In this document: positions 12,860-29,269 of the stretch, one piece after another | Layout of the letters: every line of letters begins with the position of its first letter | How positions within the stretch are numbered: the stretch's first letter is position 1 | Assembly: GCA_017853555.1 (NCBI GenBank) | Contig: JAFMJH010000003.1 | Location: 1 to 64,000 of the forward strand | Direction of reading: 5' to 3' | DNA length: 64,000 bases | Source of the DNA: Steroidobacteraceae bacterium | GTDB taxonomy: Bacteria; Pseudomonadota; Gammaproteobacteria; Steroidobacterales; Steroidobacteraceae | The notes under the pieces: generated by a model | What the model was told of the DNA's origin: nothing | What the model saw: the letters and a program-made list of their open reading frames with translations, nothing else | The model's database searches: none | Made by a program: the position numbers and the translations under genes

Positions 12860-15548
12860 TGCTGGCGAGCAGCGCTTCGAACAACTCTCGATCCTGCGCA
12901 CCCTTGGCGCGCCAGCGACGCAGCAGATCGACTTGCATCAGATGCATCGGGTCGACATAGGGATTGCGCAACGCGAGCGCGCGTTGCTGCGTACGCTCGT
13001 CATCCAGCAACTCGTGACATTCTTTGATCTCGAGCACGGCGGCGACGGCGCGCGCATATTCCTCGCGCACGCGCTCGAAAAACGAACCCGAAGCCTCGCC
13101 GGCGAGCGCAGCGTAGTGCGCCGCGATGTCGAGGTCGGTTTGCGCCAGCATGATCTCGAGATCGTCGATCAATTGCCGCAGAAACGGCCAACTGCGGATC
13201 GCCCGTCGCACTTCGTCGCTGCCGAACTCGGCGATGACGGCCCGCAAACCGCTGCCGGAGCCGAACCAGCCGGGCAACAACATGCGGTTCTGCGTCCAAG
13301 CGAACACCCACGGCACCGAGCGTAGACCGGCGAGTCCCTCCATCCCCGGACGCACGATCGGACGCGCACCGATCTGCATGCGCTCGATGACGTCGATCGG
13401 CGTGACGGCGCGAAACCAGAGATCAAATGCCGCATCGTCGGTCACGAAGCCGCGATAGCAGGCCTCGCTCGCCGCGGCGATCCGATCGGCCACCGCAAGC
13501 GTCGCAGCGTCGATCGATGCGGGTCGGTCGCGATCGGCGGCACGGCTTCGAGTCAACGCACCGAAGGCACGCTCGAGCGTACGCAAGGCAATCGGGCTCA
13601 AGCCGTAGTGACGACTGATGCTCTCGCCCTGCTCCGTCAAACGCAGCCAACCCTGTATGGTCGCCGGCGGGGTTGCCTGCACGAGCGCATCGATGCGACT
13701 GCCGCCGCGCGCAATGCTGCCACCGCGCGCATGCACGACGATAGGCTGCTCGCCCGCGGCCGCGATCGCCCGCACGATTTCGCTCTGTGCTCGATACGCC
13801 GCCACACGTGCCGCACAGAGCCCGGCCTGCTTGCCGCTCTCGGCATAGCCGACCAGCGCCAGTTGCCGCTCGCCGCGCGATTCGAGATGCCGGCGATAGA
13901 TCGGCTCGGCGAGCAGTGTCGTCAACACTGCACCGCTACGCGCGAGCGCCTCCATCGAATCGAACATCGGCGCGACGTCGATGGCGATGGTCGATTGCTT
14001 TTTGTCGTAGGCTTCGGCCCATTGCGCGAGCAGCAAAGTCGCCAGCACGTCGTCCGCACCCATCACGCCGTTGACGATGTAGCTGCCGATCGCTTCGCCG
14101 CCGAAACGGCGACGACACTGCAACATCGCATCGAACACGCCGATGCAGCGACGACCCATCGCATCGAGCTCGGCGCGCGGACCGACGTCCCGCGCGAGCA
14201 TCGAAACGAGCCGCGCGTGCCGCTCATCCGACTCGAGCGCAAGCCACGCCGGCTCATCCAGCGCCTGCGCGATCACGGCATGATGGATCTGCGCGTGTTG
14301 CCGTACATCCAGCGTCGCGAGGTGAAAACCGAAGGTCTCGATGCGTCGCAACAAGCGCCGCACCTGGTGCAAACCGGCATGCACACCGCGATTCGAACGC
14401 AAACTCTCGGCGACCAATTCGATGTCGCGTCGGAACTGACCGGGATTTTCGTAGCCGTTCGGCCGCAGATCGTAGGTGGCGCGCAAACGCTCGGACACCT
14501 GACCCATGAACACGCGATACGGCATGCGATCGTGACGCGCCGGCGCCGACGCTTTGACCGCCGGCAACAGCAGCTCGTACTCATCGATGCGCTGCTGCAA
14601 CGCCACGCTCACCGCCACCCGACTCGCACTTTGCGACAACAACTGCGCAAGCGACTGGCATTCGTTGAAATAGGCGTTGACGATGGCTTGTTGTTGCCGC
14701 GCGAGGGTCTCGCGCAGAGTTTTGGCGTTGACGTCGGGATTGCCGTCCATGTCACCGCCGACCCAACTGCCGAACCGGATGATGGTCGGCAGCTCGAAGC
14801 TTTCGGCTGCGGCGCCGTAATGCCTCACCAATGCTTCGCCGATCTCTTCATAGAAATTCGGCACGATTTTGTACAGCACTTCGACGAGATAGAACAAGGC
14901 ATGTTCACGCTCGTCCGCCACCGTCAGCCGTTCACGCGGATGATCTTCGGTTTGCCAGCTCGTCGTGAGCTCGGTGCGCAGACGCTCGCGCAGCACGCGG
15001 CGCTCGCCCGGGGACAAGGTGGGATCGAGTCGATCGAACAGCAAACCCGCGAGCCGCGACTGCTTGCGCAAAATGGTGCGTCGCGTCGATTCAGTGGGAT
15101 GAGCGGTGAAGATGGGCTCGATGTGCAGACTCGCGATCCATTCGCGCAACACCTCGAACGGTACGCCATCGGCCTTCAGTTGCGCGATCGCGTCTTCTAC
15201 GCCGCCCGGTTGCGGCTTGCCGCCGTCACTCAAAAAATAGGCGCGTCGTCGGCGCACTCGATGCAATTGCTCGGCGAGATTGACCGCCTGAAACCAGCTC
15301 GAAAATGCACGCTCGAGATCACGCGCCACGCCCGGTGCGCGACCCCGCACGCGTTGCTCGAGACTTGCGGCGGCAGCCGCATCGCCATTGCGGCGCGCGA
15401 TCGCAAGCACACGGTCACGCTCGACCAAGTCGAACAATTCTTCGCCGCCCTGGTCGCGCAACACCTCGCCGACCAATTCGCCGAGCATGTGGACGTCGTC
15501 GCGCAGCGCGGCGTGCTTTTCGGGAAATTCGATCTGGGTACGATTCAC
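12822..15548 (-). CDS. ppc: Phosphoenolpyruvate carboxylase, 908 aa
   Basis: It converts PEP and bicarbonate to oxaloacetate to refill the TCA cycle. The catalytic TAHPTES motif, the GYAESGKQAG motif, the RGGS loop (here HARGGSIARGG instead of the usual HGRGGSxxRGG) and the C-terminal QTTG (normally NTG) are present, and the length is typical. The gene begins at GTG 15548 with TAGAAT ending 7 nt upstream, so it may be leaderless. The upstream receptor gene ends in a strong terminator, so ppc is a separate unit. Convergent overlap with ccoS is 38 nt. Confidence 0.96.
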   Translation of the reverse strand: MNRTQIEFPEKHAALRDDVHMLGELVGEVLRDQGGEELFDLVERDRVLAIARRNGDAAAAASLEQRVRGRAPGVARDLERAFSSWFQAVNLAEQLHRVRRRRAYFLSDGGKPQPGGVEDAIAQLKADGVPFEVLREWIASLHIEPIFTAHPTESTRRTILRKQSRLAGLLFDRLDPTLSPGERRVLRERLRTELTTSWQTEDHPRERLTVADEREHALFYLVEVLYKIVPNFYEEIGEALVRHYGAAAESFELPTIIRFGSWVGGDMDGNPDVNAKTLRETLARQQQAIVNAYFNECQSLAQLLSQSASRVAVSVALQQRIDEYELLLPAVKASAPARHDRMPYRVFMGQVSERLRATYDLRPNGYENPGQFRRDIELVAESLRSNRGVHAGLHQVRRLLRRIETFGFHLATLDVRQHAQIHHAVIAQALDEPAWLALESDERHARLVSMLARDVGPRAELDAMGRRCIGVFDAMLQCRRRFGGEAIGSYIVNGVMGADDVLATLLLAQWAEAYDKKQSTIAIDVAPMFDSMEALARSGAVLTTLLAEPIYRRHLESRGERQLALVGYAESGKQAGLCAARVAAYRAQSEIVRAIAAAGEQPIVVHARGGSIARGGSRIDALVQATPPATIQGWLRLTEQGESISRHYGLSPIALRTLERAFGALTRSRAADRDRPASIDAATLAVADRIAAASEACYRGFVTDDAAFDLWFRAVTPIDVIERMQIGARPIVRPGMEGLAGLRSVPWVFAWTQNRMLLPGWFGSGSGLRAVIAEFGSDEVRRAIRSWPFLRQLIDDLEIMLAQTDLDIAAHYAALAGEASGSFFERVREEYARAVAAVLEIKECHELLDDERTQQRALALRNPYVDPMHLMQVDLLRRWRAKGAQDRELFEALLASINGIAQGLQTTG

Positions 15549-15631: not shown

Positions 15632-18172
15632 TCAGCGGAACGAGTAGCTGAAATCCACGCCGAAGCTGCGACCCGGTGAGTCGTGGATGAACGACCCGCC
15701 GAATTCAGGCGCCGGAATGATTTCCTGCAGATACTTCTCGTCGGCAATGTTGCGGCCCCAGGCCGTCACGCTCCACACGCCGTTGCTGACGCCCACGCGG
15801 GCGTTCATCAGGCTGTACGGATCACGCTTCTGCTTGGAGAAGTTGCCCTGACCGAAGGAGTAGTAGGTGAACAGGTTCGGCACCAGGTTTTCCTGCACGG
15901 TGCTGAACCAGGTCTCGCCGACGAACGACGCGTCGAGACGCGCGTTCACGGTCCAATCACCCGACAACGGCGCCTTGAAGTCGATGCCGGCATTGCCGGT
16001 GTACTTCGGGGCGTACGGGATCGCGTTGCCGGCCGTGTACGGACGACCGGTGTACTTCTTGATCTCCGAGTCCGTGTAGCCGTAGCCCGCGAACAGCGTG
16101 AACATGTCGTTCAAGCGGTAGCGGGTGTCGAGCTCGAAGCCCTGCACTTCAGCCTGGTCGGCATTCGTCACGACGCGCAGCAGACCGAAGGGGCCGGCGA
16201 AGAAGTTGAAGAACTGCATGTTCTCGATCTTCGTCTGGTACACCGCACCGTCGACGCTCAGCGCGCCGTCGAGCAGCTTGGCCTTGAAGCCCGCTTCGAG
16301 GGCCTTCGAGACTTCCTTCTTGTAGTCGTCGTTGACGTCGTTCAGGCTGCGGCCGCCGCCCGGGCACACCGGCACGTACGGCGCGACGAAACGCGAAGCA
16401 CCGAGGCACAGGGGCGAGTAGTACAGCTCGACCGTCGCACGGCTGCCGGTGGAGTTGAAGCCACCCGAACGGAAGCCGTAGCCATAGGAAGCGAACCAGG
16501 CGAGGTCATCGCTCTGCTTCCAGTTGACCGACAACTTCGGCTGCAACTGCGAGAAGTCCTTCGAGCGACCCGGGATCGAGGCGAGCGAGGGATTCACGGT
16601 GTACGCAGGGTTGATGAACGTGTTCGCACCGGCGGAGCCGTTGAAGCCCGGAGTCTGCGGCTTGATCTTCGGCACGTTGTTTTCGACCTCGCGCTTCTCG
16701 CTGTCGTAGCGAACGGCAAACGCGACTTCGAGACCCGGCTGCAAGTCGTACGCGATCTGGCCGAAGCCGGCGTAGACCTTGCTCTTGAAGGTGTCGGCGT
16801 AGAGCAAGTCGGTGGGGTTCGGACCACCGGTGAGCACCAACGCCTGCTTCAGGAAGCCCTGACCGCTGTCCGAGCCCTGCGAGACGACGACTTTGCGCTC
16901 GATGTCGGCAAAGTACGTGCCGGCCGTCCAGCGCACCGACTGATCGCCCGGCGACGCCAGACGCAACTCGATGCTCGAGTCCTTCTGATCGCGCTGCTGG
17001 TACTGATAGCCGTCACAGAGCGACGGGCCGTACGGCGGGAAGAAGGTCTGCACGAAGCCGCCGGAAGGCTGGTAAGGGCCGAACGGCGACGGCAGCGGAT
17101 TCGCCGGCTTCGCGTCGTTGCTCTTCTGGCAAGCCGAGGTGAGGCTGTACAGATAGAACGCGGCGCTGGTGCCGTCGGTGAGGAAGTAGTTCGTCTGGTC
17201 GTTGTAAGCGGCGATCGCCGTGAGCGTGCCGACCGACACGTCGAATTCACCCTTCACCGACAGATTGATGTTCTTCTGTTCGTTTTCGGGTTTGACGTTG
17301 TTGATGTAGACGAACTTGTGGTTGTTCGGATCTTCGTAATAGTCGGCGGCATTGGGGACGCCGAGCGACTTGAGGTACGCAGCGGCTTCGGCCAACGCCA
17401 ACGAGGCGTTGAAGTTGATGGCGCCCGCGTTGATCTTCGAGTACTTCGCCTTGAAGTCGAGCGAACCGCTGTCACCCACGTTGGTCATCAAACGACCCGA
17501 CACGCCGGTTTCTTTGAAGAAGTCGACGCAGTCGTCGCATTTGAGGAGCGAGTTCTTCCACTGGCCGTCGGTGCTGCGCGTGTAGGCGCCGAACGAACCC
17601 TTCACGCCATCGGCGATCGGGCCGGTCAGATAGAAGTTGGCCTTGTAGCTGTTGTACTGGCCGTAACCGCCGCCGACGTCGAATTCGAAGGTGTCGCTCG
17701 GCTTGCGGGTGCTGATGATCATGGCACCGGCAACGGCGTTGCGGCCGTAGAGAGCGCCCTGCGGCCCCTTCAACACTTCGATCTGCGAAACGTTGGAGAG
17801 CTCCTGGTTGAGCGCATTCGGATTCGTTTGCAACACGCCGTCGATGACGAGCGCAAAGTTGGTCTCGGCGTCGCGACCCGTGTTGATACCGCGGATCACC
17901 ACCTGCATGTCACCGGCTTCGGCAGTTTGAACCTGCGCGACGCCCGGCGTCATGGCAATGAAGTCTTGCGGACGTTCGATACCGGCCGATTTGATCTCGG
18001 TCGCGGTGAAGGCTTGCACGGTCGCCGGCACGTCGACGAGTTTTTCCTCGCGCTGACGGGCCGTGATGACGATTTCTTCGAGCTGCACGTCCTGCGCGCT
18101 CGCTTGAATCGCCGAAATGGCGCTCAACACGCCTGCGGCAACGAGTGCCGATTTGCGGATTCGATCGGACAT
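15632..18172 (-). CDS. TonB-dependent outer-membrane receptor, 846 aa
   Basis: It has a Sec signal peptide (residues 1-27, ending ASA-Q), a TonB-box-like EEIVITARQREE segment, a plug domain (RPQDFIAMTPGV ... VLKGPQGALYGRNAVAG) and a long beta-barrel ending near FSYSFR. Receptors of this kind in environmental proteobacteria often take up hydrophobic or aromatic substrates rather than siderophores; the substrate here cannot be read from sequence. GGAGG lies about 8 nt before ATG 18172. It is divergent from an amidohydrolase gene across 215 bp that holds a perfect palindrome, so the two may be co-regulated. Confidence 0.92.
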   Translation of the reverse strand: MSDRIRKSALVAAGVLSAISAIQASAQDVQLEEIVITARQREEKLVDVPATVQAFTATEIKSAGIERPQDFIAMTPGVAQVQTAEAGDMQVVIRGINTGRDAETNFALVIDGVLQTNPNALNQELSNVSQIEVLKGPQGALYGRNAVAGAMIISTRKPSDTFEFDVGGGYGQYNSYKANFYLTGPIADGVKGSFGAYTRSTDGQWKNSLLKCDDCVDFFKETGVSGRLMTNVGDSGSLDFKAKYSKINAGAINFNASLALAEAAAYLKSLGVPNAADYYEDPNNHKFVYINNVKPENEQKNINLSVKGEFDVSVGTLTAIAAYNDQTNYFLTDGTSAAFYLYSLTSACQKSNDAKPANPLPSPFGPYQPSGGFVQTFFPPYGPSLCDGYQYQQRDQKDSSIELRLASPGDQSVRWTAGTYFADIERKVVVSQGSDSGQGFLKQALVLTGGPNPTDLLYADTFKSKVYAGFGQIAYDLQPGLEVAFAVRYDSEKREVENNVPKIKPQTPGFNGSAGANTFINPAYTVNPSLASIPGRSKDFSQLQPKLSVNWKQSDDLAWFASYGYGFRSGGFNSTGSRATVELYYSPLCLGASRFVAPYVPVCPGGGRSLNDVNDDYKKEVSKALEAGFKAKLLDGALSVDGAVYQTKIENMQFFNFFAGPFGLLRVVTNADQAEVQGFELDTRYRLNDMFTLFAGYGYTDSEIKKYTGRPYTAGNAIPYAPKYTGNAGIDFKAPLSGDWTVNARLDASFVGETWFSTVQENLVPNLFTYYSFGQGNFSKQKRDPYSLMNARVGVSNGVWSVTAWGRNIADEKYLQEIIPAPEFGGSFIHDSPGRSFGVDFSYSFR

Positions 18173-18280
18173 TGAATAGGCCTCCGGGAATCAATCCCTG
18201 ACTTGGAGTGGAAAACTCGCGGAGTGTACGACCCGGCCGTGTTTTCGTGCAACGCGAATCAACGCACTCGAACACGTTTT

Positions 18281-18296
18281 GTTGCATTTATGCAAC
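18281..18296. promoter_or_regulatory. 16-bp palindrome in the receptor/amidohydrolase divergent promoter
   Basis: GTTGCATTTATGCAAC is a perfect inverted repeat, 108 bp from the receptor start and 92 bp from the amidohydrolase start. A partial copy, TGCAACG, recurs at 18248-18254. It looks like an operator for a dimeric regulator. The rest of the 18173-18387 gap shows no ORF I can support. Confidence 0.5.
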
Positions 18297-18387
18297 GACA
18301 GCCGAATGGCCGCGCCCGCAGGAAGGAGACCGGCGCGCCCCCGCTTTCGGCATCATGGCGCGGTCAGATCGCAGCAGGAGTCCCGAC

Positions 18388-19260
18388 GTGAACGCCACCG
18401 TCCCACCCGTACCGGCCATCGATATCGTCAGCGGCATCTGGACCGAGGAAGCGCTGTCCTTCCGGCCAGGCTGGCAGGATCAGTTCTTCGCCGGCAAGAT
18501 GAAGTCGAAGACCGACATGAAGGGTGTGTCGCTCGAGGCGCATCTGGCGCAAATGGACGAGGCCGGCATCGAACGTGCGTTCCTGTTCGCGCCCAAGGTC
18601 GGTCGCAAGGGTCTGCCGGGCTCCTTCCACCTGCCCTACGAAGTGATCGCCCGCGCGGTCGAAAAGTACCCCGGCCGCTTCTACGCGATGGCGGGCATCG
18701 ACCCGTATGAAGGCATGAACGGCGTGCGCCAACTGGAAGACGCGGTGAAGAACATGGGCTTCATCGGCGCGCACGTCTATCCGCACTGGTTCGACTTGCC
18801 GCCCGATCATGCGAAGTACTACCCGTTTTACGCCAAGTGCGTGGAACTCGGCGTGCCGATCCAGATGCAGGTCGGTCAGTCGATGGTGTATGCCAAAGAG
18901 GCACCGATGCGCAGCGTCGGACGACCGATTCTGCTCGACGGCATCGCCTGCGATTTTCCCGAACTCAAACTCATCGGCATCCACGTCGGCATTCCCTGGA
19001 CCGACGAGATGATCGCGATGGCATGGAAACACGAGAACGTGTTCATCGGCTCGGACGCGCACAGCCCGAAGTATTGGCCCGAAGCTTTCGTCAAATACAT
19101 CAACAGCTACGGGCAGGACAAAGTTTTGTTCGGCACCGATTTCCCGGTGCTCGGCTTCAAGCGCACGATGGACGAAGTGCTCGCGCTCAACTTGCGCCCG
19201 GAGCCGCTGCGCAAATTCCTGCGCGACAACGCGCTGCGCGTGTACGGCATCAAGACCTGA
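18388..19260 (+). CDS. Amidohydrolase-2 family protein (TIM-barrel hydrolase/decarboxylase), 290 aa
   Basis: The sequence fits the amidohydrolase-2 (ACMSD-like) barrel, with late strands LIGIHVGIPW, NVFIGSDAHSP and VLFGTDFPVLGF typical of that family. The usual N-terminal metal motif DxHxH is replaced by IDIVSGIW, so metal binding may differ. GTG 18388 is chosen because AGGAG (18376-18380) lies 7 nt upstream; ATG 18355 in frame is an alternative. It is divergent from a TonB receptor and close to CoA-transferase genes, which suggests aromatic or alicyclic acid catabolism (inference). Confidence 0.82.
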   Translation: MNATVPPVPAIDIVSGIWTEEALSFRPGWQDQFFAGKMKSKTDMKGVSLEAHLAQMDEAGIERAFLFAPKVGRKGLPGSFHLPYEVIARAVEKYPGRFYAMAGIDPYEGMNGVRQLEDAVKNMGFIGAHVYPHWFDLPPDHAKYYPFYAKCVELGVPIQMQVGQSMVYAKEAPMRSVGRPILLDGIACDFPELKLIGIHVGIPWTDEMIAMAWKHENVFIGSDAHSPKYWPEAFVKYINSYGQDKVLFGTDFPVLGFKRTMDEVLALNLRPEPLRKFLRDNALRVYGIKT

Positions 19261-19291
19261 AGACCGCGAGTCTCGCGGCCGGCGACGATCG

Positions 19292-20521
19292 TCAGTCCCC
19301 GCCCTTGGCTACCGTGGCGGCCGCCTGCTCGGCGGTCATCGCCGCGCCCTTCGCGGTGAGTTCGGCGATCTGCTCGGCCGTCATGCCCGCTTCACGCAGC
19401 ACTTCTTCGGTGTGCTCGCCGAGTCGCGGCGCGTGGCGCCGGATGTCGGCGGGCGTCGCACCGAAATTCACCGGGAACTTCGGCATGCGCAGTCGCCCCT
19501 CGGTCGGATGGTCCTGGAATTGCCAGAAACCGGTGGCCACCAGATGCGGGTCGGTGGCGAGGTCTTCGAGTCGATTGACGACGATCAGCGGCACGCCCGA
19601 CTTGTCGAATATTTTGAGCCACTCGACCGTGGTGCGCGTCGCCATGATCTCGCCGGTTTTCGAATAGGTGGCGTCGATGTTGCGCACCCGATCGGCGAGC
19701 GTACGAAATTGCGGATCTTCGATCAGCTGCGGATGCCCGGTCAGGCGGCAGAACTTTTCCCAGTGCGCATCGAGGTACGGCAGGATCGCGATGTAACCGT
19801 CGACCGTCTTGTACGGCTTGCGGTGATGGCTCATCAGGCGCGTGTAACCCGGCTTGCCTTTGGGTGGCTCGAAGGTCATGCCCCAAAGATGTTCGGCCAT
19901 CACGAAATTGACCATGGTCTCGAACATCGGCACTTCGAGCTCCTGACCCTCGCCCGTGCGCTCGCGATGAAAGAGCGCCGCGAGCACGCCGTAGACCACC
20001 GTGATCGCGGTGGTCTTGTCGGCCACGACGGTCGGCAGATACCGCGGCTCGCCGAGCACCATTTCATTGAGGGCCGCGACGCCGCTCACCGCCTGGATGG
20101 AATCGTCGAGCGCGCCCAGCGTGCCGTACGGGCCGTGCTTCGAATAGCCGTACGCGCCGCAGTAGATGATGCGCGGATTGATTTTTTTCATGTCGGCGTA
20201 GTCGAGACCGAGCTTGGTCATGACTTGCGGCCGATTGTTGTGCACGAACACGTCGGCATCTTTGACGAGCGCGAGCAGCGCCTCGCGCGCGCCCGGCAAC
20301 CGCAGATCGAGCACGATGCTGCGCTTGTTGCGATTGCAGGTGAGGTACAGCGCCGACATGCCGGGGTTGGTCGCCGCACCGAGGGTGCGATTGCTGTCGC
20401 CGCGCGGCTGTTCGATCTTGACGACCTCGGCGCCCATGTCCGCGAGCAACTGGCAGGCCCAGGGGCCGAGCACCACGCTGGTCATTTCGACGATTTTGAT
20501 GCCGTGCAAGGGTCCGGACAT
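19292..20521 (-). CDS. Family III (CaiB/BaiF) CoA-transferase, 409 aa
   Basis: The N-terminal Rossmann region (GIKIVEMTSVVLGPWACQLL, then GAEVVKIEQP) and the FVHNNRPQVMTKLGLDY segment are classical for CaiB/BaiF transferases. The likely catalytic Asp is in VVADKTTA. These enzymes move CoA between carboxylic acids through an aspartyl-CoA anhydride. GGGAG precedes ATG 20521. It is convergent with the amidohydrolase and divergent from a membrane protein gene. Acceptor unknown. Confidence 0.9.
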   Translation of the reverse strand: MSGPLHGIKIVEMTSVVLGPWACQLLADMGAEVVKIEQPRGDSNRTLGAATNPGMSALYLTCNRNKRSIVLDLRLPGAREALLALVKDADVFVHNNRPQVMTKLGLDYADMKKINPRIIYCGAYGYSKHGPYGTLGALDDSIQAVSGVAALNEMVLGEPRYLPTVVADKTTAITVVYGVLAALFHRERTGEGQELEVPMFETMVNFVMAEHLWGMTFEPPKGKPGYTRLMSHHRKPYKTVDGYIAILPYLDAHWEKFCRLTGHPQLIEDPQFRTLADRVRNIDATYSKTGEIMATRTTVEWLKIFDKSGVPLIVVNRLEDLATDPHLVATGFWQFQDHPTEGRLRMPKFPVNFGATPADIRRHAPRLGEHTEEVLREAGMTAEQIAELTAKGAAMTAEQAAATVAKGGD

Positions 20522-20567
20522 AGGAGGCTCCCGAAATCTCGATTTTCGACGCGGCGATGATACCCTT

Positions 20568-21281
20568 GTGGCCGTGCCGTACTCCGAACTCTTCCTGCTG
20601 CAGGCCGCACTGCAAACACTGCTCAGCCTCTGGCTGGTGCGGATCTGGCAACGCAGCGGTCACCTCGCCGCACTCGTGCTGCTCGTGCCGCAACTCTGCC
20701 TGGTCTACGACAACCTGATCGTGGGCATCGGGCACTGGATCGGACCAGGGTCGATGCTCGAGGCTTTGTCCTGGCCGCGATTCTGGACGCACTGGCTGTT
20801 CGGCGCCTGGGGCATCGCCGGATGCGGAGCGATTCTGCGTCTCGCCGGCGCTTCCGCCGTGCAAAGCACGCGCGGCATGCTGCTCTTCTGCTCGCTGACG
20901 CTCGCGATGATGATGTACGACCTGCCGCACTTCTTCAAAGAAAACATCCATGCGGTCTGCGAAAACGGGCTGGTGCGCTATTCGACCGCGGTCGCCGAGG
21001 GCACGGCCTGCTTTCCGGGGCAGCCCGTCGTGCCGGGCACGGCTCCGTTCGCCTCGATCTGCACGCTGCTCGTCACGCTGATCAGCGGCGGCTGGTTGCT
21101 CGCCAAGCGGCGCTTTCCGTGGATGCTGATCGGCGGGCTGTTGATGTTCGCGACGACCTTGCCGCCACTGCGCGCCCTGAAGCTCGACAATCTCGGCGAA
21201 GTGTTTTTCACCGCCGGCATCATCTGGGCACTCGCCCGCTACGCACCGCACCGCCCGCGCATCGCAACCGAACCCGCGTGA
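20568..21281 (+). CDS. Hypothetical polytopic membrane protein, 237 aa
   Basis: About six to seven hydrophobic helices are spread over the protein. A soluble loop at about 125-165 contains two cysteines and the sequence FKENIHAVCENGLVRYSTA. I do not recognise the family. GTG 20568 or GTG 20574 is the start; no ATG is in frame. The stop overlaps the following transporter gene as GTGA, so they are probably co-translated. Only 46 bp separate it from the divergent CoA-transferase. Confidence 0.7.
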   Translation: MAVPYSELFLLQAALQTLLSLWLVRIWQRSGHLAALVLLVPQLCLVYDNLIVGIGHWIGPGSMLEALSWPRFWTHWLFGAWGIAGCGAILRLAGASAVQSTRGMLLFCSLTLAMMMYDLPHFFKENIHAVCENGLVRYSTAVAEGTACFPGQPVVPGTAPFASICTLLVTLISGGWLLAKRRFPWMLIGGLLMFATTLPPLRALKLDNLGEVFFTAGIIWALARYAPHRPRIATEPA

Positions 21282-22225
21282 ACGAAGTCCGCACGAAACC
21301 GGCCCGGCTCGATCCGCTGGGCGCACTCGCGTGTGCCGCCGCGGCGATGCTGTTCGCCTGCAAAGGCATCTTCGCCAAAAAACTCTATGCGCTCGGCGTG
21401 AGCGTCGATGCGGTGGTGATGATCCGCGGCGTGATCGCGCTGCCGATGTTCTGGATCCTCGCGCTGCGCCGCGAGCCGCTGCGCGAAGTACTCGATACGC
21501 CGTGGCGCGCCATCGCCGTCGCCGCATTCGCGGGGGCGCTCTGCTACTACGTCGGCGCGATGCTCGACTTCGTCGCACTCTCGATGATCGAAGCGAGCGT
21601 CGAGCGCGTATTGATCTTCAGCTATCCGGCGATGGTGGTGCTGTTCACCTCGGTGCGCGATCGGCGCCGGCCCGCCAATCGCGTGCTGCTCGCAGTCGGT
21701 CTGACCTACGTGGGCATCTTCTTCACCGTCGGCGGCTTCGACATGGCCGAACTGCGCGCCAATCTTCTGGGCGCATTGCTCGTCATCGGTTCGGCCTTGA
21801 GTTACGCGGTGTATTTCATCGTCAGCGAGAAATACACGCGTGCCATCGGCAGCGCGCGCTATACCCTGTTCGCGATGTCGGCCGCGCCGCTGTGTCTGCT
21901 GGTGCACTTCGGAGTGCAACGCGATTTCGTCGAACTGACGACCATCTCCGAGCCCGCCTGGCTTTTGCTGTTCGGCATCGCGGTGCTGTGCATGTTCTTG
22001 CCCGCCTCGCTGCAAGCCGAAGGCGTACGACGCATCGGTGCCGAGCGCGGTGCCGTGCTGTCGACCGTCGGCCCGCCGACGACCGTGGTGTTCGCCTGGG
22101 CATTGCTCGGCGAGCGCCTGAACGTGTGGCAGTTTCTGGGGATCGCGCTGATCGTCGGCGGAATTCTCGCGCTCGACCTCAGCCAGCGGCGCGCGCCGCC
22201 GCAGCCAGAACCCGCCGCGCCTTGA
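21278..22225 (+). CDS. EamA/DMT-family transporter, 315 aa
   Basis: Ten membrane helices arranged as two EamA repeats are visible; the second ends in GERLNVWQFLGIALIVGG, a strong family signature. DMT proteins export or import small metabolites such as amino acids or their analogues. GTG 21278 overlaps the stop of the preceding membrane protein (GTGA). The 3' end overlaps the convergent lyase gene by 47 nt. Confidence 0.88.
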   Translation: MNEVRTKPARLDPLGALACAAAAMLFACKGIFAKKLYALGVSVDAVVMIRGVIALPMFWILALRREPLREVLDTPWRAIAVAAFAGALCYYVGAMLDFVALSMIEASVERVLIFSYPAMVVLFTSVRDRRRPANRVLLAVGLTYVGIFFTVGGFDMAELRANLLGALLVIGSALSYAVYFIVSEKYTRAIGSARYTLFAMSAAPLCLLVHFGVQRDFVELTTISEPAWLLLFGIAVLCMFLPASLQAEGVRRIGAERGAVLSTVGPPTTVVFAWALLGERLNVWQFLGIALIVGGILALDLSQRRAPPQPEPAAP

Positions 22226-23066
22226 AGACGATCGGATAGTCGACGAACTGTCCGTTCACCTGTATCGATGCGGACCCTGCCGCCTCGGCCTGCTCGAACG
22301 CCTCGACCACCGCACGCGCCTGCGCGACTTGTTCCGCAGTCGGCGTGAACGCCGCATTGCAGGGGGCCACCTGATCCGGATGGATGCAGAGCTTGCCGTA
22401 CAAGCCCATGCGTCGACCGTTCTGCGCGGAACGCGAAAATCGCGCGATATCTTTGACTTCGATCACGACCGTGTCGACCGGCGGCTCGATGCCGGCGACC
22501 CGCGACGCGTGCGTCAAGCGCGCCCGCGCGTAGGCGAGTTCGTGCTCCTCGAGCGTCCACTCGAGATCCAGATCGTTGGTGTAATCGCCGCCACCGAACG
22601 CGAGTCGCTTCAGACGCGGATCGGCGGCCGCGATTTCATTGGCGAACTCGATGCCGCGCGCCGTCTCGACGATGGCCATGAGTTCGATCGCACCGACCGC
22701 CAGCCCCGCGACCCGTTCCGCCGCGGCGATGAACGCGGCAGCGGCACGCACCTGCTCGGCCGACTCGATCTTGGGCAACACGATGCCGTCGACACCGTGG
22801 CCGACGACGCAGGCAATGTCGTCGGCACACCATGCGGTCTCGAGACCATTGACGCGGATGTAGCCGCGCGCGCTGCGCGGCGCACGCATCGCCTCGACCA
22901 CGGCGGCACGCGTCGATTCCTTCTCGGCGATCGGCACGGCATCTTCGAGATCGAGCAACACCGCGTCCGCACCCGCAGCGAATACTTTGGCGACCTTGCG
23001 TGGGTGATTACCCGGCGCGAACAGGTAGCTGCGTAATCCGGAAGGCAAAGCGCGCTCGTGACTCAT
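22179..23066 (-). CDS. CitE-like CoA-ester lyase (HpcH/HpaI family), 295 aa
   Basis: The protein has the citrate-lyase-beta signatures RSYLFAPGN near the N-terminus, the metal-binding DLEDAV, the active-site IVETARGI, FGGGDYTNDL and the C-terminal KLCIHPDQV. Relatives cleave citramalyl-CoA to acetyl-CoA and pyruvate, or malyl-/beta-methylmalyl-CoA to glyoxylate. ATG 23066 has GGAG 7 nt upstream. It follows the gntR-type regulator by 31 bp on the same strand and is divergent from the MaoC/ACAD/CoA-transferase operon, completing a route from a CoA-activated branched dicarboxylate to central metabolites. Confidence 0.9.
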   Translation of the reverse strand: MSHERALPSGLRSYLFAPGNHPRKVAKVFAAGADAVLLDLEDAVPIAEKESTRAAVVEAMRAPRSARGYIRVNGLETAWCADDIACVVGHGVDGIVLPKIESAEQVRAAAAFIAAAERVAGLAVGAIELMAIVETARGIEFANEIAAADPRLKRLAFGGGDYTNDLDLEWTLEEHELAYARARLTHASRVAGIEPPVDTVVIEVKDIARFSRSAQNGRRMGLYGKLCIHPDQVAPCNAAFTPTAEQVAQARAVVEAFEQAEAAGSASIQVNGQFVDYPIVFKARRVLAAAARAAG

Positions 23067-23097
23067 GGATACACTCCGAAGGAACGTGGCCGCCGAT

Positions 23098-23886
23098 TCA
23101 ACCCGGCTCGAAGCCGACGCCCGAGGCGGAACGATGCAGATCGAAAGCATACGTGAAGCGCTCGGCCGGATGCTCGGCGATGGTGATCTGCAACACCGAT
23201 CCGTCCGCTTCGCGATAGCGTCGCAACACCGTGAGCGACGGACTGCCCGCCTCCACGCCGAGCAGCGCGGCGCGTGACGCGTCGACGAGGCCCGCGCGGA
23301 TTTCCACCTCGACGCGCGCCACGCGTGCCCCGTAGCGACGCTCGATCATTTCGAAGACGCGCCCGCCCGCCCGCCCGACCTGCGGCACCACCGCCGCGTA
23401 GCGCGGCGAGAGATAGATGTCCGACCAGCCGATCGCGGCACCGCTCGGTTGCAGACGACGCACGGCGCTCACGACATTCCAGCGCGCGCCGCGCGCGCAT
23501 CCGAGGCGCGAAGCAAGCGCCGCATCGGCGGTGATCTTGCTCGCCGCACGAACCTCGAGACGACTCGGCTCGGGATAGCGCAGCAACTCGGCGGGCGAGC
23601 CGAGTCGCTGCACGTACGCGCCGGCGTTCGCGTCGGCGGTGACGACGGTGCCGATGCCGCGTCGCCGCGTGATCAAGCCGAAATCCTGCAAGCGCCGCAA
23701 CGCCTCGCGCACGGTGTGGCGACTGACGCGGTGTCGCTCGGCGAGCTCGAGCTCGCCGGGCAGCACGTCGCCGACGGCGTAACGACCGCTGCCGATGTCG
23801 GCGAGCAGAGCTTCGGCGAGTTGCCGATAGCGCGGCGCAGCAACGATTTTTCGTGATTTGACAGGCACGACGGCGCAACCTAGCAT
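23098..23886 (-). CDS. GntR-family regulator (HutC/UTRA type), 262 aa
   Basis: An N-terminal winged helix (YRQLAEALLADIGSGRYAVG, then RHRVSRHTVREALRRLQDFG) is followed by a UTRA ligand-binding domain (about residues 95-255). HutC-type regulators sense a small molecule, usually the pathway substrate. It lies between the lyase gene, with which it is co-transcribed, and the divergent catabolic operon, so it is the obvious regulator of both. Start uncertain: ATG 23886 is chosen, with in-frame ATGs at 23898 and 23922 that would overlap the putative operator or the neighbouring gene. Confidence 0.88.
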   Translation of the reverse strand: MLGCAVVPVKSRKIVAAPRYRQLAEALLADIGSGRYAVGDVLPGELELAERHRVSRHTVREALRRLQDFGLITRRRGIGTVVTADANAGAYVQRLGSPAELLRYPEPSRLEVRAASKITADAALASRLGCARGARWNVVSAVRRLQPSGAAIGWSDIYLSPRYAAVVPQVGRAGGRVFEMIERRYGARVARVEVEIRAGLVDASRAALLGVEAGSPSLTVLRRYREADGSVLQITIAEHPAERFTYAFDLHRSASGVGFEPG

Positions 23887-23887
23887 T

Positions 23888-23897
23888 TGTCCGTACA
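23888..23897. promoter_or_regulatory. Candidate GntR-type operator between regulator and MaoC operon
   Basis: TGTCCGTACA has the GT-N4-AC dyad typical of GntR/HutC sites and is flanked by a repeated CATTTG. It sits in the short divergent gap. The dyad is small, so chance occurrence is possible. Confidence 0.35.
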
Positions 23898-23920
23898 TTT
23901 GAACAGTGAAGGACGCGCCC

Positions 23921-24439
23921 ATGAGTCACACCCCGCAGGCCGTCGCGCCGAATCGCTATCGCGAGTCGTTCGGCCGCTACTACGAAGATTTCGTCGTCGG
24001 CGATGTCTACGAGCATCGTCCCGGCCGCACCGTGAGCGAAGCCGACAACACCTGGTTCACGCTGCTCACCATGAACACGCACCCGCTGCATTTCGATGCG
24101 GAGTACGGCAAGGCCTCCGAGTTCGGTCGCTGCATCGTCGCCTCTCCGCTCACGCTGGCCATCGTGGTGGGCATGAGCGTCACCGACGTCAGCCAGAAAG
24201 CGATCGCGAACCTCGGCTGGAAGGAAATCCGCATGCCTGCGCCGGTGTTCGCGGGCGACACGCTCTACGCCGAATCCGAAGTCCTCGACAAACGCGAATC
24301 GAAGTCGCGCCCGACCGCGGGGCTCGTGACGGTGCGTACGCGCGGCAGGAAAACGGACGGCACCGTGGTCTGCGACTTCGAGCGGACCATACTCGTTGCC
24401 AAACGCGGACACGCGGTCGAAGACCGCATGGGGTACTGA
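23921..24439 (+). CDS. MaoC-family enoyl-CoA hydratase, 172 aa
   Basis: A single hotdog-fold MaoC domain with the catalytic Asp-x-His region (TMNTHPLHFDAEYGK) and the conserved ASPLTLAIVVGM helix. Family members hydrate mesaconyl-CoA or itaconyl-CoA to beta-methylmalyl- or citramalyl-CoA, or related 2-enoyl-CoAs. AAGGA lies 8 nt before ATG 23921, which is preferred over the in-frame GTG 23906. It is the first gene of the operon controlled by the adjacent GntR regulator. Confidence 0.9.
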   Translation: MSHTPQAVAPNRYRESFGRYYEDFVVGDVYEHRPGRTVSEADNTWFTLLTMNTHPLHFDAEYGKASEFGRCIVASPLTLAIVVGMSVTDVSQKAIANLGWKEIRMPAPVFAGDTLYAESEVLDKRESKSRPTAGLVTVRTRGRKTDGTVVCDFERTILVAKRGHAVEDRMGY

Positions 24440-24440
24440 C

Positions 24441-25592
24441 GTGAATGCGATGACGGACGAAGACCGCGAGATCATCGACACCATCGAGCGCTGGGCCGAG
24501 CGCGAGTTGCGGCCGATCGCCCGCAAGTTCGACCACGCCGACGAATATCCGACCGAGATCGTCGCGCAGATGAAAGAGCTCGGCCTCTTCGGCGCCACCA
24601 TCGCCCCCGAGTACGGCGGCCTCGGTCTCGGCGCGAGCACCTACGCACAGATCGTCATGAAGATCTCGGCGGTGTGGATGGCGCCGGTCGGCATCTTCAA
24701 CTCGCACCTCATCATGGCCGCCTGCGTGCAACGCCACGGTACCGCCGAACAAAAAAATCACTGGCTGCCGAAGTTCGCCACCGGCGAGTTGCGCGGCGGC
24801 ATCGGCCTCACCGAACCGAATGCCGGCACCGACTTGCAGAGCATCCGCACCGTCGCGCGACGCGATGCCGACGGTTACGTCATCGACGGCAGCAAAACCT
24901 GGATCACGAACGGCGTCCATGGTGACGTGTTCGCGATCCTGACCAAGACCGACCCCGAAGCGCAGCCGCGTCACAAGGGCATGAGCCTCTTCCTGTGCGA
25001 CAAAGGCCCGGGCTTCACGGCGGCAAAGAAATTGAAGAAACTCGGCTACAAATCGATCGACAGCGCCGAACTGGTCTTCGAAAGCCACCGCGTCGGCGCG
25101 GACCGGCTGATCGGCGCAGTCGAAGGGCGCGGCTTCCAGCAAGCCGTCGGTGGTCTCGAGCTTGGTCGCATCAACGTCGCGGCGCGCGGCGCCGGCATCG
25201 CCGCGGGCGCGTTGCACGCTGCCGTACGTTACGCGCAGGAGCGACACACCTTCGGCAAACCGATAGCCCAGCATCAAGCGATCCAGTTGAAACTCGCCGA
25301 CATGGCCACCCGCGTCGAGGCGGCAAAACTTCTGATCGAGCAAGCCGCGCGCAAATACGACACCGGCGAGCGCTGCGACCTCGAAGCGGGCATGGCGAAA
25401 TTGTTCGCCTCCGAAGCAGGCGTGGAGAACTCGCTCGAGGCGATGCGCATCTTCGGCGGCTACAGTTACTCGACCGATTTCGACGTCGAGCGCTACTACC
25501 GTGACGCACCGCTGATGTGCATCGGCGAAGGCACGAACGAAATGCAGCGCATCATCATCGCGCGGCAACTGCTCGAACGGAATCCGCTGTGA
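24441..25592 (+). CDS. Acyl-CoA dehydrogenase, 383 aa
   Basis: A full-length FAD-dependent acyl-CoA dehydrogenase with the GGIGLTEPNAGTDLQSI flavin loop and a C-terminal IGEGTNEMQR segment whose Glu is the likely catalytic base. It resembles enzymes acting on short or succinyl-type CoA esters, such as methylsuccinyl-, benzylsuccinyl- or glutaryl-like substrates, but specificity is not provable here. GTG 24441 is chosen one base after the MaoC stop codon; ATG 24450 is an alternative. The stop overlaps the next CoA-transferase (GTGA). Confidence 0.92.
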   Translation: MNAMTDEDREIIDTIERWAERELRPIARKFDHADEYPTEIVAQMKELGLFGATIAPEYGGLGLGASTYAQIVMKISAVWMAPVGIFNSHLIMAACVQRHGTAEQKNHWLPKFATGELRGGIGLTEPNAGTDLQSIRTVARRDADGYVIDGSKTWITNGVHGDVFAILTKTDPEAQPRHKGMSLFLCDKGPGFTAAKKLKKLGYKSIDSAELVFESHRVGADRLIGAVEGRGFQQAVGGLELGRINVAARGAGIAAGALHAAVRYAQERHTFGKPIAQHQAIQLKLADMATRVEAAKLLIEQAARKYDTGERCDLEAGMAKLFASEAGVENSLEAMRIFGGYSYSTDFDVERYYRDAPLMCIGEGTNEMQRIIIARQLLERNPL

Positions 25593-26806
25593 ACGCGGCG
25601 GCGCCCCGCCACGCCACCGACCTGCCGCTCGCGGGCGTGCGCGTGCTGACGTTCGAAAACTTCGGCGCCGGTCCGTTCGGCTCGATGTACCTCGCGGACC
25701 TCGGTGCCGACGTCATCAAAATCGAAAGCCGCTCGCAAGGCGGCGACGCCACGCGCGCGATGGGACCGTATTTCCTCGGCGAGCACGATTCGCATTTTTT
25801 CCAGACCTTCAACCTCAACAAACGCAGCGTCACGCTCAACCTCAAGACGGTCGAGGGTCAAGAGGCGTTTCGCAAGCTCGCCGCCCGCTCCGACGCGGTG
25901 CTCAACAACTTGCGTGGCGATCAGCCCGACAAACTCGGCCTCACCTACGCGGCGCTCGCCGCGGTGAATCCGCGCATCGTGTGCGCGCACTTGTCGGCCT
26001 ATGGCCGTGACAACGAACGACGCGCCTGGCCGGGGTACGACTATCTGATGCAAGCCGAAGCGGGCTATCTGCACGTGACCGGCGAACCGGGCTCACCACC
26101 GTCACGCATGGGCCTCTCGATCGTGGACTTCATGACCGGCATCACCACCGCACTCGCCCTGCTCGCCGCGCTCTTCGGCGCGGCGCGCACCGGTCGGGGC
26201 CGCGACGTCGACGTGAGCCTGTTCGACGTCGCGCTGCATCAGCTTTCATATCCGGGCACCTGGTACCTCAACGAAAAACTCGTCACCGGGCGCGCACCGC
26301 GCAGCGCCCACCCTTCCGCGACGCCCGTGCAACTGTTCCGCACCGCCGACGGCTGGATATTCATCATGTGCATGACCGAAAAATTCTGGCATGAACTGCT
26401 GCGCGTGGTGGATTCGGACGAGGTCGCGAACGACGCGCGTTTCGCAACCCTCGCGGCGCGGCGCGAACATCGCGAGGCGCTGACCGTCGCCCTCGATGCG
26501 GTGTTCGAACGCGACACCACCGCCAACTGGCTGACCAAACTGCAGGGCATACTGCCGGCGGCGCCGGTGTACGACCTCGCGCAAGCGCTCGACAATCCGT
26601 TCCCGGCTGCCACCGGCATGATCCGCAACACCCCCCATGGGCTGCGCCCGGATTTCCGCAGCTTCGCCAACCCCATCAAACTCGATGGTGCGCGTCTGCC
26701 TGCGCAAAGCGCGCCGGCACTCGGCGCCGACACCGACAGCGTGCTCGCCGAACTCGGCTACTCTGCCGCGGACCTCGCGCGCTTGCGCGCCGCCGACGCC
26801 ATCTGA
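25589..26806 (+). CDS. Family III CoA-transferase, first of a tandem pair, 405 aa
   Basis: The CaiB/BaiF fold is clear: LAGVRVLTFENFGAGPFGS, GADVIKIES, then VLNNLRGDQPDKLGLTY, and a catalytic-Asp candidate in SIVDFMTG. It begins at GTG 25589 overlapping the dehydrogenase stop (GTGA) and ends 14 nt before a second CoA-transferase. Pairs of CaiB-type genes next to an acyl-CoA dehydrogenase recall benzylsuccinate CoA-transferase BbsEF with BbsG, where the two proteins form one enzyme. That is family-level analogy and not identification. Confidence 0.9.
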   Translation: MNAAAPRHATDLPLAGVRVLTFENFGAGPFGSMYLADLGADVIKIESRSQGGDATRAMGPYFLGEHDSHFFQTFNLNKRSVTLNLKTVEGQEAFRKLAARSDAVLNNLRGDQPDKLGLTYAALAAVNPRIVCAHLSAYGRDNERRAWPGYDYLMQAEAGYLHVTGEPGSPPSRMGLSIVDFMTGITTALALLAALFGAARTGRGRDVDVSLFDVALHQLSYPGTWYLNEKLVTGRAPRSAHPSATPVQLFRTADGWIFIMCMTEKFWHELLRVVDSDEVANDARFATLAARREHREALTVALDAVFERDTTANWLTKLQGILPAAPVYDLAQALDNPFPAATGMIRNTPHGLRPDFRSFANPIKLDGARLPAQSAPALGADTDSVLAELGYSAADLARLRAADAI

Positions 26807-26820
26807 CGGGATACCTGCCG

Positions 26821-27999
26821 ATGAAACTCGAAGGCTTGCGTGTCGTCGATTTGTCACTGTTCCTGCCCGGCCCGGCGCTCACGCAACTCATGGCCGACCA
26901 CGGCGCGACCGTGATCAAAGTCGAGCCGCCAGGCGAAGGCGAGCCGAACCGGCATATCGGTGCGCGTCAGGACGGCGTCTCGGTGTTCTTCAGAAACACC
27001 CACCGCGGCAAGCGCAGCGTGAGCATCAACCTCAAACATGAGACGGGCCGCGAAGCGCTGCTGCGAATCGCGGAGCGCGCCGACGTATTCGTCGAAGCGT
27101 TTCGTCCGGGCGTGGTCGATCGCCTCGGCGTCGGCTACGCGGCCGTCGCGGCGCGCAACCCGCGCATCGTCTACTGCTCGATCTCGGCGTTCGGTCAACG
27201 CGGCCCCTATCGCGACATCCCCGCCCACGATCTGGCGACCGAAGCACTCGGCGGCATCGTGAGCCTCAATCTCGGCAACGACGGCCAACCGACGCTGCCG
27301 CACGTCCCGATCGCCGACTTGAGCGCCGCCCTGCACGCCTTCGGCGGCGTGATGATGGCGCTCTATCGACGGCACGCCACGGGGCAAGGCGATTACATCG
27401 ACATGTCGATGCACGATGCGGTTCTGGCGAGCACGCCCAACGTGACCGGCGACGTGTTCGCCCATGGCCACGCGCCGATCGTCAAAGAATTTCGCTCGCT
27501 GGGCGGCTCGGCGTTCTATCAAATCTATCCGACGCGCGACGGCAAGCACGTCGTGCTCGGTGCCCAGGAAGCCAAATTCGTCCGCAACCTGCTCGGCGAA
27601 CTTGGCCGTCTCGATCTCGTGCCGCTGTGCGACCGCGGCCCCGGCGCACACCAACGACCCGTCATCGACTTTCTGCGTGCGACGTTCCTCACGCGCACCA
27701 GAGACGAATGGGTGGAATGGTTCCGCGGCAAGGACATCGGCTTCGCGCCCGTCAAAGACTTGCGCGAAGCCTTTGACGATCCGCAGGCCGCAGCGCGCGA
27801 GATGCGACTGATCGACGACGCCGGGCGCGAGCACGTCGGCACGCCGGTGAAATTCGCGCACGAACCGGGCCGCCCGCAACTTTGGCTGCCGAAAGTCGGC
27901 GAACACAACCGCGTCGTGCTGCACGAAGCGGGCTACTCGGATGCGGAGATCGACCAGTTGTACGCGAGCGGCGCACTGCCTGCGGTCGATGGCCCCTGA
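26821..27999 (+). CDS. Family III CoA-transferase, second of a tandem pair, 392 aa
   Basis: It has the CaiB/BaiF pattern GLRVVDLSLFLPGPALTQL, GATVIKVEPPGEGEPNR, VFVEAFRPGVVDRLGVGY and a likely catalytic Asp in VPIADLSAALHA. It is distinct in sequence from the preceding transferase, so it is not a recent duplicate. The two may be subunits of one heteromeric enzyme or act on different acids. It is the last gene of the MaoC operon; no clear terminator follows. Confidence 0.9.
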   Translation: MKLEGLRVVDLSLFLPGPALTQLMADHGATVIKVEPPGEGEPNRHIGARQDGVSVFFRNTHRGKRSVSINLKHETGREALLRIAERADVFVEAFRPGVVDRLGVGYAAVAARNPRIVYCSISAFGQRGPYRDIPAHDLATEALGGIVSLNLGNDGQPTLPHVPIADLSAALHAFGGVMMALYRRHATGQGDYIDMSMHDAVLASTPNVTGDVFAHGHAPIVKEFRSLGGSAFYQIYPTRDGKHVVLGAQEAKFVRNLLGELGRLDLVPLCDRGPGAHQRPVIDFLRATFLTRTRDEWVEWFRGKDIGFAPVKDLREAFDDPQAAAREMRLIDDAGREHVGTPVKFAHEPGRPQLWLPKVGEHNRVVLHEAGYSDAEIDQLYASGALPAVDGP

Positions 28000-28078: not shown

Positions 28079-29269
28079 ATGTTCGAGTCCCTGACCCGCG
28101 TTCCGCCCGATCCCATCCTCGGCGTGTCGGCCGCTTTCCAGAAAGACTCCTCGGACTCGAAAGTCGATCTCGGCGTCGGCGTCTACAAAGACGAAGCGGG
28201 CAAGACGCCGGTGCCGCGCGCCGTGCGCCGCGCCGAACAGGACCTGATTGCCGCGCAAACCACCAAAGCCTATCTGAGCCCGGTGGGCAATCCGGGCTTC
28301 AACGCGCAAGTCGCCGCCCTCGCCTTCGGTGCCGACCTCGCCGGTCGCAAAGCCGACTTGTCGCTCGCACAGGCGCCGGGCGGCAGCGGTGCGCTGCATC
28401 TCGGTGCGCAATTCCTGAACGCCGCGCGTCCCGGCTCGATCGCGTACGTCAGCGATCCGACCTGGGCGAACCACATCCCCCTGCTCGGTGCCGCCGGCCT
28501 GAAAGTCGAAAAGTATCCCTACTACGACAATGCCACCAACGGCGTCGCGTTCGATCGTATGGTGTCGTTCCTCGACGCGCTGCCCGCCGATTCGGTGGTG
28601 GTGCTGCATGCCTGCTGTCACAACCCGACCGGCCAGGATCTGGACGTCGCGCAGTGGCAGACGATCGCCGAGGTGCTCGCCAAGCGTCGCCTGCTGCCGT
28701 TTCTGGACATGGCCTATCAGGGCCTCGGCGAAGATCTGGATCGCGACGCCGCATCCATTCGTTTGCTTGCGAAAACGGTACCCGAATTGCTGGTCGCCGT
28801 GTCCTGCTCCAAAAATTTCGGCGTCTACCGCGAACGCACGGGCTTGCTCGCCGTGCTCTCGGCCAACGCCGAACAAGCTTCGATCCACGTGGGTCAACTC
28901 GGACGCATCGCGCGCACGTTGTGGTCCATGCCGCCGGATCACGGCGCCGCCGTGGTCGATCGCGTGCTCGCGACGCCCGAGCTGCGACAGGAATGGGTGG
29001 CTGAACTCACGCACATGGCCAACCGCATCAACAGCCTGCGCTCGCTGCTCGCCGAAAAATTGACGGCGACGACGGGTCAGGATTTCGGCTGGATAAAAGG
29101 TCAGCGAGGCATGTTCTCGCGTCTGCCGTTGCGCGCCGAACAGGTCGTCGCGCTGCGCGAGCAGCACCACATCTACATGGCGCCGGACGGACGCATCAAC
29201 ATCGCAGGCGTAAGCCCGGCGAATTGCGCGCATGTCGCCGACTCGGTCGCGGCGGTGATGCGCAGCTGA
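28079..29269 (+). CDS. Aspartate/aromatic amino acid aminotransferase (class I), 396 aa
   Basis: A PLP-dependent fold-type I enzyme close to AspC/TyrB. The N-terminus (MFESLTRVPPDPILGVSAAF) and the ACCHNPTG motif are typical, and the PLP lysine is in SCSKNFGVYRERTG. It interconverts aspartate or aromatic amino acids with their oxo-acids. AGAGG precedes the ATG. The gene stands alone between the CoA-transferase operon and convergent msrA. AspC versus TyrB cannot be separated by eye. Confidence 0.93.
   Translation: MFESLTRVPPDPILGVSAAFQKDSSDSKVDLGVGVYKDEAGKTPVPRAVRRAEQDLIAAQTTKAYLSPVGNPGFNAQVAALAFGADLAGRKADLSLAQAPGGSGALHLGAQFLNAARPGSIAYVSDPTWANHIPLLGAAGLKVEKYPYYDNATNGVAFDRMVSFLDALPADSVVVLHACCHNPTGQDLDVAQWQTIAEVLAKRRLLPFLDMAYQGLGEDLDRDAASIRLLAKTVPELLVAVSCSKNFGVYRERTGLLAVLSANAEQASIHVGQLGRIARTLWSMPPDHGAAVVDRVLATPELRQEWVAELTHMANRINSLRSLLAEKLTATTGQDFGWIKGQRGMFSRLPLRAEQVVALREQHHIYMAPDGRINIAGVSPANCAHVADSVAAVMRS

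Follow-up and report, generated by a model that had tools for sequence, protein, structure and literature searches.

Analysis of a 64,000-nucleotide stretch of a Steroidobacteraceae contig (JAFMJH010000003.1, positions 1 to 64,000; hereafter, the window) identified a six-gene module in which a CitE-type lyase and a GntR-type regulator lie divergent from a MaoC hydratase, an acyl-CoA dehydrogenase (ACAD) and two CaiB-family proteins, CaiB1 and CaiB2. We tentatively propose, at a little short of an even chance, that this is a GntR-repressed module in which CaiB1, CaiB2, ACAD, MaoC and CitE break down a 2-substituted succinate by way of its coenzyme A (CoA) esters, and that it forms part of a wider regulon. 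The gene set, as read in an initial annotation of this DNA, was borne out by open reading frames and by Pfam and NCBIfam searches of the window, which confirmed all six genes in place:

22179..23066, minus strand: C-C lyase of the CitE type, HpcH/HpaI family, lying downstream of GntR; Pfam HpcH_HpaI, 174 bits
about 23098..23868, minus strand: GntR/HutC-type regulator; Pfam GntR, 70 bits, and UTRA, 59 bits
23858..23886, plus strand: promoter-like TTGACA - 17 bp - TAGCAT in front of MaoC, from sequence
23888..23897, unstranded: predicted operator palindrome TGTCCGTACA, family consensus TGTCCGGACA; window and 15 loci aligned
23921..24439, plus strand: single-domain MaoC hydratase of the RipB/Ich - mesaconyl-CoA hydratase type; MC_hydratase, 89.7 bits
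about 24441..25592, plus strand: FadE3-like ACAD; FadE3 (PDB 4iv6), 437 bits
about 25589..26806, plus strand: CaiB1, class III CoA-transferase in which Tyr stands in place of the racemase His; CoA_transf_3, 385 bits
26821..27999, plus strand: CaiB2, CaiB family (CoA_transf_3) with racemase-type His136/Asp166/Glu250; residue alignment and trees

Gene starts are choices among in-frame candidates; for GntR a GTG was chosen, and the open frame extends to 23922.

A predicted operator co-occurs with the GntR regulator

In the gap between GntR and MaoC, TTGACA-17-TAGCAT is followed after one base by TGTCCGTACA, and the palindrome thus stands beside the -10 box. Across the aligned regions of the window and 15 further loci, the palindrome was present in 16 of 16 (in locus L029 with one mismatch) and an exact TTGACA in 11 of 16. 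The wider comparison comprised 81 loci, made up of the 80 closest relatives among 569 MaoC-homologue loci plus L116, and the fractions given for them hold for these closest relatives, not for the whole family. An exact site upstream of MaoC was found in 14 of the 22 loci that hold GntR at any position vs 1 of the 59 that lack it, and several of the eight GntR loci without such a site carry sites before other genes. Perfect copies of the palindrome number 40, in 26 of the 81 loci. Palindromes observed with the same half-site composition had a median of 3 copies, and none of the others exceeded 15 (12 of the 30 possible half-site arrangements were observed, and the median is taken over those 12, operator included).

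The association recurred in 27 new loci sharing no 150-mer with the loci used earlier, in which the operator was found in 8/8 with an adjacent GntR and in 0/19 without. These loci came from two sets of 20, from which those already used (L160, L162, L164, L166, L169 and L174) or already known (seven) were removed to leave 14 and 13, respectively. In the first set, L167 had both GntR and the site and 13 loci had neither; in the second, the site was present in 7/7 loci with GntR and 0/6 without. The new loci are not all independent, since most belong to one genus.

The regulator combines GntR and UTRA domains with a GT-N4-AC palindrome, as do GntR/HutC regulators, and this spacing fits HutC-type sites as described in an excerpt of PMC4494728; the HutC consensus has TA at its centre, however, whereas the palindrome here has CG. 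Among the matches listed, none of 25 NCBIfam models for the regulator was over its cut-off. No match to the operator sequence was found in the literature searched, where papers may print such sites in pieces. These results suggest that TGTCCGKACA is the operator of the GntR regulator, a prediction that is new here and that lends support to the GntR control put forward in the initial annotation.

Gene coupling and conservation of the module

The plus-strand genes are tightly coupled, with a single base separating the MaoC stop from the GTG of ACAD, a GTGA overlap between ACAD and CaiB1, and a 14-bp gap between CaiB1 and CaiB2. GntR and CitE share an orientation, with 31 bp from the GntR stop to the chosen CitE start. 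A FadE3-like ACAD lies within 3 kb of the MaoC homologue in 66 of the 81 loci, and CaiB2 lies within 6 kb in 44 of these 66; the MaoC-ACAD-CaiB2 arrangement is not due to chance. Among the 23 other genomes of the genus, 21 gave a MaoC match at an E-value of 1e-50, as did 29 of 60 relatives and, at the level of the class, 13 of 369 genomes (the latter two counts include the source genome), and MaoC is hence common within the genus and scattered beyond it. The named relatives with the locus are Steroidobacteraceae-like and other proteobacterial metagenome-assembled genomes. The source assembly comprises 74 contigs (2.48 Mb), and the host has been called a freshwater-type bacterium.

CaiB1 and CaiB2 are separated in CaiB-family trees

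All CaiB proteins compared retain the class III transferase Asp. In alignments to FAR and MCR, His136, Asp166 and Glu250 of CaiB2 align with His126/Asp156/Glu241 of MCR, residues that have been probed by mutation in MCR (PMC10967716). This triad is present in 43/43 complete CaiB2 homologues and invariant in A1, while the racemase-His position of CaiB1 is occupied by Tyr in 50/61 and Phe in 10/61 homologues, with His in 0/60 complete rows; one gapped row was set aside for each protein. A tree built from a 220-column region grouped CaiB2 with FAR and MCR (support 98), apart from the transferases. A second tree, with more racemase-like rows and with CaiB0 (a third CaiB of the window) and two diagnostic columns removed, separated transferases from CaiB2 plus racemase-like proteins (93). 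CaiB1 fell on the transferase side and CaiB2 on the opposite side in both trees, which included every third CaiB1 and CaiB2 row. CaiB1 and CaiB2 as sister subunits were rejected on this split. CaiB1 also occurs without CaiB2 in several loci. Taken together, the split, the triad and the solitary CaiB1 genes do not support the initial proposal of a two-subunit, BbsEF-like transferase; by residues and trees, if not by fold, CaiB2 looks more like a racemase than like a second transferase subunit.

We also considered whether CaiB2 replaces MmgE/PrpD. Among the core loci, an MmgE/PrpD gene lies within 1.5 kb of MaoC in 11/22 without CaiB2 and 4/44 with it (counts 40/11/11/4; Fisher p 0.0004, a test that ignores the relatedness of loci). 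The contrast does not survive a test on the tree. The source genome has two PF03972 (MmgE/PrpD) genes on other contigs and none among the six genes of the module.

Hydratase, dehydrogenase and lyase

The best NCBIfam model for MaoC was RipB_Ich (NF038241), at 233 bits over 167/175 positions and below the cut-off of 340, while the Pfam MC_hydratase model (PF19315) was exceeded clearly (89.7 vs 26.5 bits). MaoC is 59% identical to an annotated RipB/Ich of Paraburkholderia. The Asp of the hot-dog fold is catalytic in PhaJ-type enzymes; the corresponding position is Asn throughout 91 rows of the MaoC family (87 by pattern, four by eye), and the same Asn is found in the second domain of Mch (beta-methylmalyl-CoA dehydratase, 8hgn). 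By sequence, MaoC is closest to dicarboxylyl-CoA hydratases.

ACAD scored 437 bits against FadE3, with a next best score of 281 and 166 against (2S)-methylsuccinyl-CoA dehydrogenase (8ciw). The initial annotation had called for comparison with Mcd: ACAD shares 34% identity with Pseudomonas Mcd and falls in a separate clade, and the two are not orthologous. CitE remained below cut-off with both the citE (225 vs 443 bits) and RipC_Ccl (170 bits) models, and is 39% identical to P. aeruginosa Ccl and 30% to RipC, at a depth where the tree is weak. It forms its own 13-row clade (98), and a second lyase lineage, grouped with RipC (97), precedes the same module in many other proteobacteria. Lyases of two lineages have thus become attached to the module at least twice, favouring a cleavage step. 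With the RipB_Ich/MC_hydratase-type MaoC and its Asn, this linkage makes the previously suggested chain of activation, dehydrogenation, hydration and cleavage appear sound.

A second operator site suggests a wider regulon

The source genome contains two exact sites (TTGTCCGKACAW), one of them that of the module, and none in the reversed control. The other lies on contig C63, at about 93600-100583 (L150). On one side of it is a run of CaiB, an isochorismatase-family hydrolase, a 341-aa protein and a methyltransferase; on the other, a 3-hydroxy-3-methylglutaryl-CoA (HMG-CoA)-lyase-type gene is followed by a hydantoinase-like gene, so named from its sequence and from an annotated homologue in L140. 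Every gene at this site has homologues in module loci of other bacteria, among them CaiB (66%) and HMGL (55%) beside the module in L051 and HyuA (69%) in L038. Given this second site and these homologues adjoining the module elsewhere, the TGTCCGKACA regulon probably extends beyond the module, which would be one of its branches.

In other module loci, which typically read HapK - SDR - PuuE-like - CitE - MaoC - ACAD - CaiB1 - CaiB2, the operator stands before HapK, PuuE-like, TonB/AmdH or CitE genes. HapK, SDR and PuuE-like genes lie immediately 5' of CitE-MaoC-ACAD-CaiB1-CaiB2, as an extended operon, in L081, L073, L030 and similar loci. The source genome has a PuuE-like gene (62%) next to an SDR gene (66% to the SDR of L081); neither these nor its HapK gene has an adjoining operator, even at one mismatch. 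In L081, from a marine bacterium, CaiB2 is followed directly by a protein of the CpeT/CpcT family (bilin lyase-like) whose start resembles that of a lipoprotein (12053-13186).

Within the window, positions 15632-21281 encode a TonB-type receptor, an Amidohydro_2 protein (AmdH), for which NCBIfam gave no name, and CaiB0, an arrangement that 10 related loci also keep next to the module; in four of these loci (L012, L017, L020 and L021) the operator lies in the TonB-AmdH gap. An open frame at 20214-21281, beside EamA, seemingly encodes a membrane protein and had no Pfam or NCBIfam match; the names of the TonB receptor and of an aminotransferase (28079-29269) were read off the sequence and not taken from a family search. 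Related clusters in Pseudosulfitobacter, Rhodococcus and Thermus plasmids (L138, L140 and L135) combine a single-domain MaoC with CaiB, ACAD, CitE and GntR-type regulators, and further hold MmgE or a two-subunit fumarase.

The C63 genes and the HapK/SDR/PuuE-like neighbours also led us to a bolder idea, which we consider improbable: that the genes of the regulon make up a hitherto undescribed aerobic route for a compound with a nitrogen-containing ring (a cyclic imide, lactam or hydantoin-like compound, conceivably a maleimide derived from a pyrrole). The ring would be opened and nitrogen released by PuuE-like and isochorismatase-like hydrolases together with the hydantoinase, leaving a substituted succinate, which CaiB1 would activate, CaiB2, as a new dicarboxylyl-CoA racemase of the CaiB family, would epimerise, and the FadE3-like ACAD, MaoC and CitE would split. 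The operator offers a handle on the substrate, since the partner genes that it marks here and in other bacteria point to amide or ring hydrolysis upstream.

Proposed mechanism and alternative explanations

In the mechanism we propose, the GntR/HutC-type repressor would bind TGTCCGKACA next to the -10 box in front of MaoC and, as long as no inducer is present, silence both the transcript that it shares with CitE and the divergent MaoC-ACAD-CaiB1-CaiB2 operon. The substrate would be a 2-substituted succinate, C5-type or larger, onto which CaiB1 would move CoA taken, for example, from succinyl-CoA. CaiB2 would then epimerise the alpha-branched CoA ester in the manner of a racemase, the FadE3-like dehydrogenase would form a 2-substituted fumaryl-CoA, MaoC would hydrate it, and CitE would cleave the resulting malyl-type CoA ester. 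Repression, each enzymatic step, the substrate and the products are what we infer from the patterns described above. If CaiB2 is a racemase, CoA would sit next to the branch (C1 ester), and methylsuccinate would yield propionyl-CoA and glyoxylate; otherwise, the C4-ester route of Pseudomonas to acetyl-CoA and pyruvate would be as likely.

Several observations weigh against this proposal. No enzyme of the window reaches an NCBIfam equivalog cut-off of the pathway, and no dicarboxylate transporter was recognised in the operon. GntR has no adjoining CitE in L166, L167 and 5/7 new GntR loci of the second set, and among 13 same-genus genomes an orthologous CitE was found in one, only a CitE of 35-39% identity in nine and none in three. 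Four GC-rich palindromes are spread over more loci than the operator, which is missing from the TonB-AmdH gap of the window and from 6/9 same-genus loci of the first new set, those without GntR. As for CaiB2, its AlphaFold model scored best against transferases (Z of 41.9 for SUGCT and 39.4 for BbsEF, vs 35.5 for the racemase MCR) and the fold search picked no racemase, although the transferase-racemase gap is larger for the CaiB1 model (42.6 for SUGCT vs 31.1 for the best racemase); Asn152 of MCR and the GGG following its Asp156 are both absent in the alignment with FAR and MCR. Counting MmgE over the whole locus also weakens the contrast between CaiB2 and MmgE (p 0.01, or 0.07 for long loci), and the test on the tree gives no significance for it.

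The structural scores, together with the adjacent, coupled CaiB genes and the transferase Asp retained in CaiB2, would suit a heteromeric succinyl-CoA-dependent CoA-transferase of the BbsEF kind acting on a larger substituted succinate without a racemase step. We regard this as unlikely, given that CaiB1 occurs on its own, that CaiB2 clusters with racemases and not with CaiB1, and that its His is lacking in the transferases compared, CaiB1 and Ict. A convergent itaconate/methylsuccinate (C5-dicarboxylate) pathway to acetyl-CoA and pyruvate is possible, if rather doubtful: the enzyme classes match those of the P. aeruginosa cluster as far as the excerpted PMC12290011 describes it, the hydratase resembles an annotated RipB/Ich, and a related Pseudosulfitobacter cluster combines CaiB, MaoC, MmgE, ACAD, GntR and CitE, but the hydratase falls below the RipB cut-off, ACAD and CaiB belong to other clades, the lyase is only 39% identical to Ccl, and the second operator stands amid hydantoinase, isochorismatase and HMG-CoA-lyase genes that C5 acids would not need. 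Very improbable, in our view, is a side branch for 3-substituted glutarate- or tricarballylate-type acids with CitE as an HMG-CoA- or citryl-CoA-type lyase; citE is indeed the best curated lyase model and genes of the HMG-CoA-lyase type are seen repeatedly in neighbouring loci as well as at the second operator, yet the citE score is far below cut-off and the hydratase is like mesaconyl/itaconyl-CoA hydratases.

Comparison with known systems

Our literature search found no paper on such a gene set. The initial claim that no characterised operon has this set fails for the chemistry, because the P. aeruginosa/C. necator cluster, which additionally has MmgE, exists (PMC12290011 and PMC9875883, both in excerpt), while the window set still stands as a separate lineage. 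In PMC12290011, the methylsuccinate route comprises a CaiB-type Ict, (RS)-methylsuccinyl-C4-CoA dehydrogenase, an MmgE isomerase, Ich and Ccl, with MmgE/PrpD isomerising free methylsuccinate in the Pseudomonas cluster; P. putida grows with PA0878-0886, as an excerpt of PMC9875883 states. The itaconate-methylsuccinate cluster (ict, ich, mcd, msi, ccl; PA0878-PA0883 in P. aeruginosa), as far as these excerpts go, acts on a branched C5 dicarboxylate and shares with the window a CaiB transferase, an ACAD, a hydratase and a CitE lyase. The P. aeruginosa cluster has a long Ich, an Mcd of another clade, MmgE and one CaiB, with LysR genes alongside, whereas the window has a RipB-type MaoC, a FadE3-type ACAD, CaiB2 and GntR. 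P. aeruginosa Ich gave no match to the window MaoC at an E-value of 1e-3, and Marinobacter Ich was 23% identical over 60 aa; with these results, the 34% identity of ACAD and the absence of MmgE, orthology to the Pseudomonas itaconate cluster was rejected.

The Yersinia-type ripABC operon has the same hydratase family as the window, but its transferase belongs to another family (annotated as acetyl-CoA hydrolase/transferase), and the Paraburkholderia example has no ACAD and a RipC neighbour distant from the window lyase. Identity as ripABC was also rejected, with MaoC under the RipB_Ich cut-off. BbsEF/BbsG of anaerobic toluene degradation likewise pairs two CaiB-family genes with an ACAD for a substituted succinate; the bbs pathway has a thiolase. 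Unlike that system, the window has a CitE-type lyase, and its CaiB2 carries the racemase triad. CaiB2 shares the catalytic positions of the alpha-methylacyl-CoA racemases (MCR and M. tuberculosis FAR) and differs from them in its transferase-like overall fold score and in the Asn152 and GGG context.

The predicted C1-ester chain to propionyl-CoA and glyoxylate is similar to the lower ethylmalonyl-CoA pathway (Mcd, Mch and Mcl), and MaoC has the Asn motif of Mch domain 2; unlike Mch, however, the hydratase is single-domain, and unlike Mcd of that pathway, ACAD is FadE3-like. The breakdown of methylsuccinate and itaconate has been worked out recently, in one enzyme lineage only. If our proposal is correct, the module would put this chemistry together in another way, under a simple operator, and a CaiB-family protein acting on the CoA ester would carry out the stereochemical step in place of MmgE/PrpD acting on the free acid. 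Judged by their sequences, the window enzymes appear to be a separate lineage whose chemistry would resemble the recently published pathway.

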